A model generated the notes under the pieces. That model was not told the origin of the DNA, searched no databases, and saw only the letters and a program-made list of their open reading frames with translations. Position numbers and translations under genes: made by a program. Shown piece after piece: positions 9,410 to 22,807 of a DNA stretch of 33,256 nt (position 1 is the first letter of the stretch; every line of letters begins with the position of its first letter). Source of the stretch: Acidobacteriota bacterium (GTDB taxonomy: Bacteria; Acidobacteriota; Vicinamibacteria; Vicinamibacterales; UBA8438); NCBI GenBank assembly GCA_021296475.1, contig JAGWAJ010000004.1, positions 58,937 through 92,192 on the forward strand. The letters are read 5' to 3'.

Positions 9410-10339
9410 CTACTTGACGACGAAGGTCACGTCCTCGTGCGCCATCAGGCCGCCGTCGTGGGCGAGGCCGCGCAGGACGTAGGTGCCCGGCGTGTCGAAC
9501 GTCGCCTGCACCACCCACTTGCCCATCGGAGGCGCCTCGGGGGTCTCCCAGCCGGGCGAGAAGGGCGAGTCGGCGTTGTTCCGCGTGTCCTCCCACGCCT
9601 TGAACTGCGGCGGATTGAAGCGCACGCCGCCGGCGCCGCGGTAGACGAACCACGACATCCGGAGACCCGTCGCCGCGTTCGGCGTCACGTTGACGGGCGG
9701 CTTCGTCGGATCGAAGCGGCGCATCGCGCGCGGCTTCGGCAGCTCGTCGTCGCTGGCGTAGGCGGCGAGGGTGACCCACTCTCCCACCTTGGCGGTCCGC
9801 TTCTTCTTCCCGACGAGCACGAGTTCCGGCGTCTGGTTCTTGTAGATGTCGCCGGAGGCGCCCCCGCCGTTGTTCGCCATGAGGACGCTGTTGTCGATGA
9901 AGTAGTCGGGGTGCAGCGTCGCGTAGGCCCGCTTCGTCTCGCCGTTGGGGCTGGTCAGGGTCCAGATCACCTCGCCGTCCCCGAAATCGGCGGGCACGTG
10001 GACCTTGAACAGGAACCGGTTGCGGCGCGGGAGGAAGCGCGTCGGCTGCCCCAGATCCGGGCCACCCGGTTCGAGCCTGTTGTTCGGACCGGGCGGAATG
10101 TCGATCTCCTCCTCCCAGTTCCGGTTGAAGTAGCCGAAGACCAGGTTGAAGGACCCGTCCGGATTCGGCTCCCATCCCTCGTAGGCAGGCACGACCTCCT
10201 GGCCTGTGGCGAACGACTCCCGCATCTTGCGGGGAGTCTGGGCGCTGCTCTCCAGCACGGATCCGGCGACGATCGCGAACGCGACGAGGAGCGCGCAACC
10301 CAGCCTCGCTGTCAGCCGGCAAAGGCGCGGTTCGTTCAT
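9410..10339 (-). CDS. Secreted protein of unknown function, partner of the cytochrome/PHM gene
   Basis: 309 residues. The N-terminus has a signal peptide: basic start, hydrophobic GCALLVAFAIVAGSVL, then a likely cleavage after SSAQ near residue 34, so it is probably periplasmic. The body is Pro/Asn/Gly-rich and beta-looking, with NRFLFKVHVPADFGDGEVIW and WFVYRGAGGVRFNPPQFKAW. The end, FDTPGTYVLRGLAHDGGL, resembles the closing strands of Ig- or PKD-like domains. I do not recognise a catalytic motif. Proteins of this look often accompany PHM-like genes in acidobacteria (recollection, not tested). GGAGGG lies 6 bases before the ATG. It is downstream of the cytochrome/PHM gene, separated by 120 bases with a strong hairpin that could reduce its expression relative to the first gene. 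Confidence 0.75.
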   Translation of the reverse strand: MNEPRLCRLTARLGCALLVAFAIVAGSVLESSAQTPRKMRESFATGQEVVPAYEGWEPNPDGSFNLVFGYFNRNWEEEIDIPPGPNNRLEPGGPDLGQPTRFLPRRNRFLFKVHVPADFGDGEVIWTLTSPNGETKRAYATLHPDYFIDNSVLMANNGGGASGDIYKNQTPELVLVGKKKRTAKVGEWVTLAAYASDDELPKPRAMRRFDPTKPPVNVTPNAATGLRMSWFVYRGAGGVRFNPPQFKAWEDTRNNADSPFSPGWETPEAPPMGKWVVQATFDTPGTYVLRGLAHDGGLMAHEDVTFVVK

Positions 10340-10373
10340 GGCCGACCCTCCATCGCAAACGAGAACGGGCGAC

Positions 10374-10402
10374 GGGGTCCGGCGGCCTGCGCCGCCGACC
10401 CC
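10374..10402 (-). terminator. Strong GC hairpin between the two secreted-protein genes
   Basis: GGGGT plus CGGCGGC (10374-10378, 10380-10386) pair with GCCGCCG plus ACCCC (10391-10402) around a 4-base CTGC loop, with a single bulged base at 10379. This 12-bp stem sits in the 120-base gap. No T-run follows on either strand. It could be a partial terminator or an mRNA processing/stability element setting the ratio of the two products. Confidence 0.45.
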
Positions 10403-10459
10403 GGTCGCATGAGGTTCACGGAACGCCGAGCGGAGTTTCCCGACCGGCCGGCAGCGGGC

Positions 10460-11977
10460 CTACTGGCCGGCACCGGCCGCTTCGGTAGCCTCCGCCGCGG
10501 CCGCTTCGGCTTCCGCCGCCGCCTCGGCCTCCGCCGCGGCTTCGTTCAGCGGATCCTCCACGCCGCAGAGCGGACAACCGATCACGCGCTCGCCCGCGGC
10601 GAGGTCGAGCACCTGCTCCCGCTCGGCCAGGGCCGCCTTGAACTCGTCGTCGTCCAGGTAGCTGCCCTGCATGATGTTGATGAACATCTGATCGACCGAC
10701 CGGTTGCCGCCGCCCGACCAGTTCCGCGGATCGGGAACATTCGGGTTCGACGCCGAGTTGTTGAACCAGCCGGTGATGTGCAGGATGGTGCCCTTGGGCA
10801 GCAACGGCATCGCATGGTCGGCGTACGTGTACACGCGCACCCAACTGTGGTCGTAGCCCGAGCAGTTGAGGGTCTCGATCGTGGTCCCGTAGATGGCCTC
10901 CAGGCACATCCGCACCCCGGGCGCGTGCATGTGGGGCTCGAAGACCGAGATCCGCGCATGGTCCGGAAGCACGAAGTACGACTCCATCGTCTGGTTCGGA
11001 TGCTCCGCCTCGACGTCCAGATCGACACCGTTGCCGAACGCGATCAATCTCTGATCCACCTCCGGCTCGTAGCCCTTGGGATGGAACTTGAAGCCGATGT
11101 CCAGACGGGCGCGGGTGGCAGCGCCGTTCGCGTGCAGGTGCAGGGAGGGAAACGTGATCTTCGAGTCGGCGACCATCTCCTTGCCGGCCTTCGGATCGAA
11201 GACATCGGCGTTCCGCCCCACCTCGTGAACCGGCCAGCTCGAGAGCCCAGCGGCCGCCAGCGGGTCCTCGTCGTCGAAGTCGGGGCCGACGACGCGGATC
11301 ACCGCATGGTGGAAGACGAAGCGCCCGCCCACCGTCTGCCGGCCCTCACCGACACGTGACTCCGTGACCTCCTTGAATTCGATCGCGGAGACGTAGCGGT
11401 CTTCCTGGAGGCCCGTTTCGACGTCGGCCACGGCCCCCCACCAGTCGGGCGCATCGGCCTTCACCTCGACGCTCGGAGAGGGCACGATGAGGTCCGGGTC
11501 ACCGATCTCCCACTCGTCGACGTCGATGAACGCCACGGGCGGCGGCATGTCGGCCGGATTCCCGAACGGCGCCCCGTTGTCGGCCCAGGCGGCGATCTTC
11601 AGGATCTCCTCCTCGCTCAGCGACGGGTCGTTCTTGAAGTCCTGGATGCCGATGCCCTTCTCGATGTACCAGGGCGGCATCACGCCCATCTTGTCGCGCA
11701 ACCCGGTGCGGTACTTCATCGCCCGCGCCCAGGGACGCACCTCTTCGTAGTCGATCAGCGACATCGGCGCCAGCGCGTCGGGCTGGTGGCACCTCTGGCA
11801 GCTCCGCTGCAGGATCGGCGCGATGTCCTTCGTGAACGTCACCTCCTCGGTGACCCGGTCGGATTCCAGTACCTGCCCGGCCGCGGGCAGTGCCGTCATT
11901 ACCGCGACAGCCGCCGCGAGGGCGAGCGCCGCCCGCGCCGCTGTCGACCGCCGCCGATCGTGCTGCGTCGTCGTCAT
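10460..11977 (-). CDS. Secreted monohaem cytochrome c fused to PHM-like copper type II monooxygenase domain
   Basis: 505 residues. A signal peptide (ALALAAAVAVMTALPAAG) leads to a cytochrome c domain with haem motif CQRCH (60-64) and a probable axial Met in MPPW (M100). The following domain carries every copper-ligand motif of the peptidylglycine hydroxylating monooxygenase fold: FHHAVIRV (H223, H224), HLHANG (H280/H282), EPHMHAPG (H349, H351) and DQMFINIM (M431/M436). This suggests an outer-face or periplasmic oxidase fed electrons through its own haem; the substrate is unknown. The end has CPLC (468-471) and a low-complexity Ala/Glu tail. GAGG lies 5 bases before the ATG, and a good promoter is at 12047-12075. 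It is probably transcribed with the 9410-10339 gene. Confidence 0.8.
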   Translation of the reverse strand: MTTTQHDRRRSTAARAALALAAAVAVMTALPAAGQVLESDRVTEEVTFTKDIAPILQRSCQRCHQPDALAPMSLIDYEEVRPWARAMKYRTGLRDKMGVMPPWYIEKGIGIQDFKNDPSLSEEEILKIAAWADNGAPFGNPADMPPPVAFIDVDEWEIGDPDLIVPSPSVEVKADAPDWWGAVADVETGLQEDRYVSAIEFKEVTESRVGEGRQTVGGRFVFHHAVIRVVGPDFDDEDPLAAAGLSSWPVHEVGRNADVFDPKAGKEMVADSKITFPSLHLHANGAATRARLDIGFKFHPKGYEPEVDQRLIAFGNGVDLDVEAEHPNQTMESYFVLPDHARISVFEPHMHAPGVRMCLEAIYGTTIETLNCSGYDHSWVRVYTYADHAMPLLPKGTILHITGWFNNSASNPNVPDPRNWSGGGNRSVDQMFINIMQGSYLDDDEFKAALAEREQVLDLAAGERVIGCPLCGVEDPLNEAAAEAEAAAEAEAAAAEATEAAGAGQ

Positions 11978-19371: not shown

Positions 19372-20406
19372 TCATAGTGTAGGCCAAAAGGCCCGCAGGG
19401 CCGGCCGCACCGCCGCGAGCGCCGCGTCGGCCGCGGGGGTCGCTCCGTCCAGGCTCGCGATCGCTCCGGGAGACGCGCCCGCGGCGACCTCCAGCGTGCC
19501 CTCCAGGCACGCCTCGAGGGCGGCGAGGTCGTAACCTCCCTCCGTGACCACCGCCAGCCGCCCGCGGCAGCTCCGCTCCGCGGCCGCGCGCAGGCGCCGG
19601 GTGAGCGTCGCGTAGCCCCCGGTCGTCACCCGCATCCCGCCGAGCGGGTCGTCGACGTGCGCGTCGTACCCGGCCGACAGCACGATCAGCTCGGGGTCGT
19701 AGGCGGCCAGCACCGGGGCCGCGACCTCCCGGAAGACGCGATCGAGGTCGGCGTCGCCTGCCCCCGCCGCGAGCGGGATGTTGACGGTGAAGCCCGCCCC
19801 GTCGCCGCGTCCCACGTCGTCGGCCGCCCCTGTGCCCGGATAGAAGGGGTACTGATGCGTGGACAGGTAGAGCACGCGCGGGTCGTCGTAGAAGATCCAC
19901 TGCGTGCCGTTTCCGTGGTGCACGTCGTAGTCGACGACCGCGACCCGCTCGAGCCCCCGGTCGAGCGCGTGGGCCGCGGCGACCGCCGCGTTGTTGTATA
20001 GGCAGAAGCCCATCGCCCGCTCCCGCTCCGCGTGGTGGCCCGGCGGCCGGACCAGGGCCAGGGCGATCGCGTCGCCGTCGAGGGCGTGGTCGACCGCCGC
20101 CAGCGCCGCGCCGGCCGCCAGGCGGGCGATCGCCTCCGATTCCGGCGCGGCGTAGGTGTCCGGATCCAGACGCACCCGGCGTCCGGCCGTCGAGCCGATG
20201 GACCGCACGTAGCCCGCTGCGTGCACGCGCTCGAGCGCCGCGTCGGACACCACCCGCGGCTCCGCCGTGCGGCCGCCGCGGGACCGCCAGCGCGACAGGA
20301 CCGCCGCCATCACGTCCGCCCGCTCGGGACGCTCCGGATGTCCGGCCGGGGTCGCGTGATCGCGGAAGCGCTCCGAACCGATCACCAGCACTTCGCTCGT
20401 GGCCAC
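19372..20406 (-). CDS. Histone deacetylase-family (AcuC/acetylpolyamine amidohydrolase-like) zinc deacetylase
   Basis: 344 residues. All catalytic landmarks of the arginase/deacetylase fold are present: [16 protein letters not shown] with the His-His pair at 124-125, [13 protein letters not shown] with zinc ligands D161 and H163, SAGYDAH with zinc ligand D248, and EGGYD with the transition-state Tyr292. Such enzymes remove acetyl or acyl groups from protein lysines or polyamines. Substrate choice cannot be read. The start is a GTG at 20406 with GGAGG 6 bases upstream; the open frame beyond it includes a 13-base tandem repeat and is not coding. It lies downstream of the DUF374 gene and 46 bases before leuS. 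Its place beside acyl-CoA/ETF genes hints at acyl-lysine turnover, which is only inference. Confidence 0.87.
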
Positions 20407-20418
20407 AGCGCCCTCCTC

Positions 20419-20457
20419 TTCCTGCCTCGCGTTCCTGCGTCGCGTTCCTGCGTCGCG
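20419..20457 (-). repeat. Three tandem 13-base repeats upstream of the deacetylase gene
   Basis: The plus-strand unit TTCCTGCGTCGCG occurs at 20432-20444 and 20445-20457, and with one mismatch (TTCCTGCCTCGCG) at 20419-20431. The array fills most of the 62-base gap between the DUF374 stop and the HDAC-family start and ends next to that gene's ribosome-binding site. Confidence 0.8.
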
Positions 20458-20468
20458 GCGGACCCGCC

Positions 20469-21197
20469 TCAAGCCGGGCGATCTGGATATCGCCCCGCCC
20501 CACTTCGGCGATCGTCGCGGCCGATCAGCCGCAGCGCGCGGCGCGCGGCGTCGTGCAACGCCTGCTCGAGACTCCGGCGCGTCGACTCGATCCGCTCCTC
20601 GTCCGCCGGCGGCGGCGCCGGAATGGGTCGTCCCACGACGATCGCGGCACGGGCGAACGGCTTCGGAATCTGGGCGCGGTCCCAACTGCCGGCGGTCCAG
20701 CACGGAGCCGCTTCGATGTGGAAAGGCAGTATCGGATGCCCGGTCAGCCGCGCCAGCCAGACGGCCCCCGGCTGGACCGAGCGGGCCGGTCCGCGCGGGC
20801 CGTCGACCGTGAACGCCGCCGGACGGCCTGCGCGCATGTCGCGCCGGAGCTGGGCAAGGGCGCGGCGGCCGCCGCGGGACGTCGACCCTCGGGCCGTGCC
20901 GTATCCGAACCGCTCGATGATGCGCGCGATCCACTCCCCGTCGAAGTTCGCGCTGGTCATCACGACGATGCCGCGACGGCGCCAGAAGTACGTTGCGGAG
21001 AGGATCCGCCCGTGCCAGAACGCAAAGATCGGCGGCTGCCCCGCCCGTTCGAGAGCCTCGAAATGCTCGTAGCCGGAGACGGTCCACCGCAGGCTCCATC
21101 CGAGAAGAGCGACGGTCGGATAGCCGGCGGCGGCGATGACCGCAGCCTGCGCCCGCTGGCTCCGCGTCAGCCCCGACGTGCCGGCAAGCGGCTTCAC
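20469..21197 (-). CDS. DUF374 lysophospholipid acyltransferase-like protein
   Basis: 242 residues. It matches the DUF374 family, distant relatives of PlsC/LpxL acyltransferases: FAFWHGRILSATYFWRRRG, SANFDGEWIARIIERFGYG, GSTSRGGRRALAQLRRDMRA, FTVDGPRGPARSVQPGAVWL and ARLTGHPILPF. The likely job is acyl transfer to a lipid A or phospholipid precursor at the inner membrane; an N-terminal segment (VIAAAGYPTVALLGWSL) could anchor it. In many relatives a His precedes the DGE motif; here the position is Asn (ANFDGE). The GTG at 21197 overlaps the ETF-QO stop by four bases (GTGA), so the two are translationally coupled. Confidence 0.8.
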   Translation of the reverse strand: MKPLAGTSGLTRSQRAQAAVIAAAGYPTVALLGWSLRWTVSGYEHFEALERAGQPPIFAFWHGRILSATYFWRRRGIVVMTSANFDGEWIARIIERFGYGTARGSTSRGGRRALAQLRRDMRAGRPAAFTVDGPRGPARSVQPGAVWLARLTGHPILPFHIEAAPCWTAGSWDRAQIPKPFARAAIVVGRPIPAPPPADEERIESTRRSLEQALHDAARRALRLIGRDDRRSGAGRYPDRPA

Positions 21198-22807
21198 ATG
21201 CCTTCGTAGCGGGGACCGCCGCCGCCCTCGGGCGGTACCCAGTCGATGATCTGGTACGGGTCCATGATGTCGCACGTCTTGCAATGGACACAGTTCGACG
21301 CGTTGATCTGCAGCCGCTGGCCGCCCGCCTCGGCGTCGACCATCTCGTAGACGGCGGCCGGGCAGAACCGCGTGCAGGGGTTGCCGTACTCCTCCCGGCA
21401 GCGTGTCCGGCAGATGTCCGTGTCCTGGACGAGCAGGTGCGACGGCTGATCCTCGTCGTGCCGGGTACCCGAGTAGTGAACGTTGGTCAGCTTGTCGAAG
21501 GTCAGGCGCCGATCGACCGGCACGGCGGCCGCGGCGGGCTCGCCCCCGGCGACGCGCCGCAGGCGCGTGTGCCCGGCGTGCGCGGGCATCGGATCGCGGA
21601 TCCACCAGCCACCGGTCACCAGGGACAGGCCGGAGTACAGCAGTCCGGGCAGCAGCCCGCCGGCGAACGCCTGGTGCACGTTGCGCACGGGATGGAGCTC
21701 GCGTCGGATCGGTCCGGACTCGACGAGGGCGGCATACTGCGCCAGCCGTTCGGCCGACGCGTCGTTGGCCCGCACGGCCTCCAGGGCGGCATCGGCCGCA
21801 GCCATGCCGCTCTGCATCGCGAGGTGAATCCCCTTGAGCCGCATCGAGTTGAGGAACCCGGCCGCGTCGCCGACGATCAGCGCGCCGTCGACGTGACAGC
21901 GCGGGACCGCGTGCCAGCCTCCCTCCGGGAGAGCCTTGGCGCCGTAGCGGACCATCTCGCCGCCCGCCAGCAGATCGGCGACGAGCGGATGGCGCTTGAA
22001 GCGCTGGAATGCGGTGTGGGGGTCGAAGCCGGGATCCCGGTAGTCGAGGCCGGCCACGAAGCCGACCGAGAGCGCTCCGTCGGGAAGCGCGTAGAGGAAG
22101 CCGCCCCCGAACTGCTCGTGCGGCAGCGGATAGCCCATCGTGTGGATGACGGCCCCGGCCGGCAGGCGGCCCGACGGCACCTCCCACAGCTCCTTGATGC
22201 CGACCGCGTAGACCTGCGGCAGCCGTCCGTCGTCGAGCCCGAAACGCTCCACGAGCGTCTTGGTCAGGTTGCCGCGAACGCCGTCGGCGAGCACGGTGAC
22301 CCGCGCGCGGATGTCGACCCCCGGCTCGAACGCCGCCTTGCGGTTCCCCTCGCGATCGACGCCGCGATCCCCGGTCCGCACCCCGACGACGCGGTCCCCC
22401 TCGTAGAGGAGCTCGGCGCCGGCAAAGCCCGCGAAGAGGTCGACGCCCGCCGCCTCGACCTGCTCGGCCAGCCAGCGCACGAGGCGATTGAGGGAGATGA
22501 CGTAGTTGCCGTGGTTGCGAAGCGGCGGCGGTGTGATCGGAAACGGGATCCGCCGGCGCTCGGTCAGGAAGTAGATGCGATCCTCGGTGACCGGAACCGC
22601 GACCGGCGCCCCGCGGGACTGCCAGTCCGGCATCAGGTCGGCCAGCGCCGACGGGTCGAGCACCGCCCCCGACAGCATGTGGGCGCCGGGCTCGCGCGAC
22701 TTCTCCAGCACCGCGACGACCGGCGGCTCGCCGCCTACCGTCCGGTGCCGCGTCGCAAGGCGGTAGGCGGCGGCGAGGCCGGCGGGCCCGCCTCCGACGA
22801 CCAGCAC
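21194..22807 (-). CDS. Electron transfer flavoprotein-ubiquinone/menaquinone oxidoreductase (ETF-QO)
   Basis: 537 residues from the GTG at 22807. The FAD dinucleotide fold begins at once (VVGGGPAGLAAAYRLATR), and EKSREPGAHMLSGAVLDP, CHVDGALIVGDAAGFLNSMR and LKGIHLAMQSGM are family signatures. The C-terminal ferredoxin-like domain carries the 4Fe-4S cysteines in NPCTRFCP and NCVHCKTCDIMDP. The enzyme passes electrons from reduced ETF to the membrane quinone pool. The GTG start leaves almost nothing before the first beta-strand. An in-frame CTG at 22834, one base after the etfA stop and 4 bases after GGGGGAG, would add LDRETLDVD, which matches usual family N-termini, so the true start may be CTG. 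Its stop overlaps the DUF374 start. Confidence 0.92.
   Translation of the reverse strand: MLVVGGGPAGLAAAYRLATRHRTVGGEPPVVAVLEKSREPGAHMLSGAVLDPSALADLMPDWQSRGAPVAVPVTEDRIYFLTERRRIPFPITPPPLRNHGNYVISLNRLVRWLAEQVEAAGVDLFAGFAGAELLYEGDRVVGVRTGDRGVDREGNRKAAFEPGVDIRARVTVLADGVRGNLTKTLVERFGLDDGRLPQVYAVGIKELWEVPSGRLPAGAVIHTMGYPLPHEQFGGGFLYALPDGALSVGFVAGLDYRDPGFDPHTAFQRFKRHPLVADLLAGGEMVRYGAKALPEGGWHAVPRCHVDGALIVGDAAGFLNSMRLKGIHLAMQSGMAAADAALEAVRANDASAERLAQYAALVESGPIRRELHPVRNVHQAFAGGLLPGLLYSGLSLVTGGWWIRDPMPAHAGHTRLRRVAGGEPAAAAVPVDRRLTFDKLTNVHYSGTRHDEDQPSHLLVQDTDICRTRCREEYGNPCTRFCPAAVYEMVDAEAGGQRLQINASNCVHCKTCDIMDPYQIIDWVPPEGGGGPRYEGM

Follow-up and report, generated by a model that had tools for sequence, protein, structure and literature searches.

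The ascorbate-dependent enzymes PHM and DBH are textbook examples from animals, known from hormone and neurotransmitter synthesis. In both, two single electrons from ascorbate reduce two copper centers, CuH and CuM; CuH is the electron-transfer site, and CuM is the site at which O2 is bound and a C-H bond is hydroxylated (PMC4846438, PMC6123673). Here we describe P1, a bacterial gene in the window (the whole 33,256-nucleotide stretch of DNA that was analyzed), for which an earlier note had proposed a secreted chain joining a CQRCH haem motif to PHM-type copper motifs. No prior description of a cytochrome c-PHM family turned up in a targeted search of open-access papers.

Predicted fold and conserved residues of P1

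The features of the locus are collected in Table 1. Orthologues in three genomes of the same genus were 94-95% identical to P1 over residues 1-505, and the signal region formed a helix (residues 8-27) in the AlphaFold2 model. When P1 alone was compared by sequence with Pfam, NCBIfam and the PDB, there was no convincing match and no copper-domain match; it fell below the cut-offs for PF01082 and PF03712, and two homologues from its own genome scored above that for PF03712.

Table 1. Features of the P1-P2 locus, with coordinates in the window
Feature	Coordinates	Strand	Remarks
P1, secreted cytochrome c - PHM/DBH-fold copper protein (predicted)	10460..11977	-	505 aa, ATG start
Predicted signal peptide of P1	11876..11977	-	~residues 1-34; RRR n-region, hydrophobic core, AxA-type end; read from sequence
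Predicted c-type cytochrome domain	11558..11845	-	~residues 45-140; weak Pfam Cytochrome_CBB3 match in homologues; model helices
CQRCH haem-attachment motif (C60, C63, H64)	11786..11800	-	residues 60-64; invariant
M100 of MPPW, likely axial haem ligand	11678..11680	-	invariant
PHM-like N-subdomain (CuH side)	11018..11500	-	~residues 160-320; model and Foldseek
H223-H224, putative equivalents of PHM H107/H108	11306..11311	-	alignment, conservation
H280, putative equivalent of PHM H172	11138..11140	-	sole His of the H280/H282 pair kept in L117 and L118
PHM-like C-subdomain (CuM side)	10658..11017	-	~residues 321-440; Cu2_monoox_C in paralogues, model, Foldseek
H349-x-H351, putative equivalents of PHM H242/H244	10925..10933	-	alignment, conservation
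M431 in SVDQMFINIM, putative equivalent of PHM M314	10685..10687	-	alignment, conservation
C468-x-x-C471 (GCPLC), C-terminal motif of the core subfamily	10565..10576	-	44/53 homologues
P1-P2 intergenic gap	10340..10459	-	120 bp; AGGAGG-like ribosome site (GGAGGG) upstream of P2
P2, secreted partner	9410..10339	-	309 aa; signal peptide; two Ig-like beta-sandwich domains; no Pfam family

The model, which was built on an alignment of 53 diverse family members (alignment A1), had a mean pLDDT of 86.2 and a pTM of 0.82. Foldseek comparison with the PDB returned human DBH first (E 2.9e-10), followed by numerous PHM entries in succession (E ~1e-7, prob 1.00), and DBH and PHM outranked all other double jelly-roll proteins. 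The TM-scores were moderate (~0.5-0.58, PHM length), as expected because identity was about 9%. According to this model, the core of P1 is a double beta-sandwich of the PHM/DBM copper type II monooxygenase superfamily, and the PHM-like domain postulated in the earlier note was borne out by DBH and PHM as the best structural matches.

The N-terminal part of P1 has the features of a c-type cytochrome, namely a CxxCH motif, a distal candidate axial Met and a predicted signal peptide. Pfam Cytochrome_CBB3 was matched weakly by 49 of the 53 homologues, P1 itself being below the cut-off, and the domain formed helices at residues 48-60, 77-93 and 122-133 of the model. A second Met, M72, was 98% conserved; it is lost in the distant paralogue L118, where M100 stays.

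Conservation was determined over 55 sequences, comprising the 53 members of A1 and the distant paralogues L117 and L118. C60, C63, H64, M100, H223, H224, H349, H351 and M431 were 100% conserved, and the two candidates for the third CuH histidine, H280 and H282, were conserved at 98% and 87%, respectively. Among the 15 histidines of P1, only the haem His and five putative copper ligands reached 98% or more, with no other at or above 90%, and M100 and M431 were the invariant residues among its 14 methionines. About 9.6% of alignment columns were this conserved, giving p about 8e-7 for six of six random sites passing. The residues around M431 (SVDQM) resemble the SSDEM motif of PHM. As read from the alignment, the conserved residues are one c-haem set and one PHM-type dicopper set, and the putative CuH (His-His and His) and CuM (His-x-His and Met) sites are both complete in P1. 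The proposal of a secreted chain with CQRCH and PHM-type motifs was thereby upheld, all six putative copper ligands being kept in 98-100% of the 55 sequences.

The third CuH ligand had been left as H280 or H282. L117 and L118 score 32.9 and 27.5 bits, above the Pfam Cu2_monoox_C cut-off of 23 bits, and keep H280 but not H282; on this basis, we assign H280 as the probable counterpart of PHM H172. H282 was rejected as a CuH ligand; it is an additional histidine found in the core subfamily and missing from both paralogues. One member of A1 also gave a weak Cu2_monoox_C match.

The C-terminal CPLC motif was absent only from distant or truncated members and may form a disulfide or a metal site. Its conservation, like the presence of the partner protein P2, could suggest a binding role, in which P1 would bind copper or haem without catalysis, for copper handling or sensing, on a retained PHM fold. 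However, both distinct copper sites and the covalent-haem motif are kept across many paralogues per genome, and family members occur in operons with catabolic enzymes and transporters (see below), which makes a purely binding role very unlikely.

The contacts of PHM with the peptide carboxylate of its substrate are R240, N316 and Y318. The matching positions of P1 are E347 (E in 46 of 55 sequences), I433 and I435. Because the PHM residues are not conserved, peptide amidation is not the expected reaction, and glycine-extended peptides, which were among the substrates recommended for assay, are unlikely substrates as far as the alignment indicates.

The P2 partner and distribution of the family

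In 111 pairs, P1 is immediately followed by a P2 relative, the gap ranging from -29 to 263 bp, and in the genome of origin P2 stands beside 10 of the 10 closer P1 paralogues; the description of P2 as an orphan was consequently abandoned. Where no P2 was detected, the P1 copy is in many cases a distant family member or sits at the end of a contig. In a mirror-tree comparison of 87 pairs, P1 and P2 distances were correlated (r 0.92; highest null value 0.21), in part because of shared descent. P2 is thus the co-duplicated and most consistent partner of P1, and the two-gene extracytoplasmic module envisaged earlier agrees with the signal peptides and consistent pairing of both proteins. The P2 model (pLDDT 91.9) contained two Ig-like sandwiches and, because it resembled many unrelated Ig/FnIII tandems in a structure search, its fold gives no clue to function.

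The genome of origin (3.17 Mb, 160 contigs) encodes about 11 further P1 homologues of 29-75% identity. One of these is split into two frames (G000:C117:1261-2465; residues 14-325 and 347-454) by a frameshift or an assembly error. L117, from the same genome, is 35% identical to P1 over nearly its full length, and L118 (L118:730-3225), also from this genome, is an 832-aa cytochrome c - Cu2_monoox_C - TPR fusion without P2.

All 27 other sampled genomes of the same genus and family had at least 13 P1 matches each, and seven more complete counts yielded 13-26 matches in each genome, partial matches included. The number of copies in this Vicinamibacterales family is about 10-25 per genome. The P1 family is patchy across the order and occurred in 89 of 396 genomes spread over the phylum. 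The closest loci in public genomes were from Acidobacteriota (Vicinamibacterales and some others), and homologues from Gemmatimonadota and Gammaproteobacteria were 45-52% identical to P1. Some homologues came from MAGs labeled Acidimicrobiia or Cyanobacteria, which may be mis-assigned, and a search of plasmids found no P1 homologue. At three loci (L080:926-11806, L081:132-10785 and L163:9356-16243), three or four P1 copies lie within 11 kb, suggesting tandem duplication.

Altogether, these results indicate that the P1-P2 pair is massively duplicated in Vicinamibacterales and is also present in Gemmatimonadota and Gammaproteobacteria. Every sampled genome of this Vicinamibacterales family carries many P1 copies, nearly always with the Pfam-less partner. 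With so many copies per genome, an abundant group of uncultured bacteria may depend on numerous periplasmic oxygenases that have gone unrecognised.

Gene neighbourhoods and the proposed reaction

In the window, P1-P2 is flanked by a gyrase/topoisomerase B gene on one side and by a small membrane-protein ORF and then htpG on the other (identities read from sequence), and no other module gene adjoins it, dehydrogenase and transporter genes being absent alongside. The 118-bp gap upstream of P1 contains a plausible ribosome site. P1 had been credited with its own promoter, a claim that found no backing in a consensus scan of this region, which detected no sigma-70-type promoter, a weak negative in a GC-rich genome; a terminator scan at the window locus was likewise empty. 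Elsewhere in the window, an ORF at 19372-21291 (-) encodes a histone-deacetylase-like (acetylpolyamine amidohydrolase) domain; whether the long open frame at its N-terminal end is real is doubtful.

Neighbourhood comparison revealed no third gene that was constant beside P1-P2 at most loci. At nine loci from two phyla, the genes form an operon of the order cytochrome c - PQQ alcohol dehydrogenase - P1 - P2; the carriers are L051 and L052 from Vicinamibacterales, which lie in the sister clade of the window copy's clade, and seven Gammaproteobacteria. The three operon dehydrogenases tested (L051, L052 and L109) scored above the TIGR03075 cut-off, and PqqE was encoded in 7 of the 9 genomes tested, including the genome of origin. 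TAXI and fused TRAP permease genes follow P1-P2 at eight gammaproteobacterial loci, one of which (L112) is cut off upstream, and at eight other loci a sodium:solute symporter gene adjoins the pair.

The gammaproteobacterial cluster (L108-L115) is conserved, has the order cupin (mandelonitrile-lyase-like) / cytochrome c / PQQ dehydrogenase / P1 / P2 / TAXI / TRAP permease and is apparently a complete small catabolic operon. Quinoprotein dehydrogenase homologues numbered 26-41 in each of three genomes (G000, G006 and G007), representing another large expansion of genes for periplasmic oxidation in this bacterial family. Because of this abundance, loose proximity of a dehydrogenase to P1 means little; general proximity was dropped as evidence, and only the conserved cytochrome c - PQQ - P1 - P2 operons were used.

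From its predicted features, P1 probably oxidises organic compounds outside the inner membrane. The reading that we favor, and regard as likely, is that P1 is a periplasmic dicopper monooxygenase of the PHM/DBM superfamily that uses its c-haem as a built-in electron donor and P2 as an obligatory partner in the hydroxylation of small organic compounds. Periplasmic c-type cytochromes would pass electrons to the N-terminal c-haem (C60/C63/H64, axial M100), which would pass them to CuH (H223/H224/H280); CuM (H349/H351/M431) would bind O2 and hydroxylate an aliphatic C-H bond of the substrate, as in PHM and DBH. P2 would most likely be a subunit that binds P1 and shapes the docking of the substrate or the redox partner. 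Bacteria of this kind are not known to make ascorbate, and the fused c-haem would be the obvious substitute as donor. That the haem might stand in for ascorbate had already been suggested, and the suggestion was strengthened by the operons with cytochrome c and quinoprotein alcohol dehydrogenase genes; the donor role itself we infer. These operons suggest where the electrons could come from and how an alcohol product could be used. In some relatives, the alcohol would probably be passed to the co-encoded PQQ alcohol dehydrogenase and the electrons returned through the co-encoded cytochrome c, closing a redox loop with the balance RH + O2 -> R=O + H2O.

The same operons can be read in the opposite direction. 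When a cytochrome c domain is fused to a periplasmic enzyme, it often serves as the exit for electrons, and the PQQ dehydrogenases encoded beside P1 release electrons, as would be expected if the haem were an acceptor and P1 an O2-independent, oxidase- or dehydrogenase-like copper protein feeding the cytochrome pool. However, the CuM-type His-x-His...Met set, which is the O2-activating site in the PHM/DBM superfamily, is fully conserved, and P1 has no domain for a flavin, a quinone or another organic cofactor. We therefore consider an acceptor role for the haem quite improbable.

PAL-like NHL proteins are encoded beside P1 at five loci (L053, L058, L073, L160 and L161), and in divergent orientation at L035/L134. 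PAL was the best PDB match of the N-terminal half of the NHL protein (E 2.7e-16); the active-site positions HR, HG and DGY were aligned, and three inner-strand histidines were conserved. This would fit a bacterial PAM-like system, in which the carbon adjacent to an amide nitrogen is hydroxylated by P1 and the product is then cleaved by a distinct PAL-like lyase, resulting in oxidative N-dealkylation or amidation. Against this, 5 of ~77 NHL genes in eight genomes lay within ~1.6 kb of P1 or P2 when ~2.3 were expected by chance (an estimate), so that enrichment is not clear, and the P1 family has replaced the residues that hold the substrate carboxylate in PHM. Such a system is an unlikely explanation for the family, and the window module, which has no PAL-like gene beside it, is not a PAM system. 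The NHL-linked P1 copies are more distant paralogues. Propellers adjoining PHM-like genes (L058:9539-10684, L073:10182-11366, L161:6703-7836 and L160:7413-8591) conserve HR, HG, DGY, PHC..DR and PHS motifs, and such gene pairs may correspond, in bacteria, to the PHM and PAL halves of PAM.

Returning to the haem-driven monooxygenase, a wider and more tentative proposal, which we hold to be somewhat doubtful as a whole, is that P1-P2 is a two-component periplasmic oxygenase system with an obligate Ig-like subunit, that it operates in a PQQ-dehydrogenase/cytochrome c loop where these are co-encoded, that its 10-25 copies per genome form a broad toolkit with which recalcitrant dissolved organics are oxidised in marine, host-associated and soil Acidobacteriota, and that one branch works with a PAL-like lyase.

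Comparison with known systems

If this proposal of a covalent haem as built-in reductant is correct, the bacterial branch would represent another way to drive dicopper chemistry, and a haem-fused branch would be useful in testing the debated route by which electrons reach CuH. In particulate methane monooxygenase, a copper monooxygenase likewise acts beside a PQQ methanol dehydrogenase and a c-type cytochrome. The likeness is a functional analogy only; the folds are unrelated and the copper sites differ, and the methane enzyme is in the membrane whereas P1 is predicted to be soluble.

Homology is closer to the bacterial Cu2_monoox_C proteins L117 and L118, which share sequence and the layout of a cytochrome c and a copper domain with P1. 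Some Cu2_monoox_C proteins with cytochrome c carry TPR repeats. Four features of P1 are missing from L117 and L118: a P2 partner, H282, the C358/C372 pair and the CPLC motif.

PHM (PF01082/PF03712) has the predicted fold of P1, all six copper ligands and a similar ligand spacing. P1 differs from it in the fused haem domain, in E/I/I at the carboxylate contacts and in giving no detectable sequence match of its own. DBH (DBM/TBM/MOXD group, PDB 4zel) resembles P1 in its core of two beta-sandwiches with CuH His3 and CuM His2Met (PMC4846438), and in having an extra N-terminal domain ahead of the catalytic core. In DBH, however, this is an Ig-like DOMON domain, no haem is seen and ascorbate is used, whereas P1 has a cytochrome c domain; the two proteins are 12% identical, and the bacterial P1 has its Ig-like component as a separate partner, P2. 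On the predicted fold and ligand set, the P1 family is part of the PHM/DBM superfamily but is not PHM proper.
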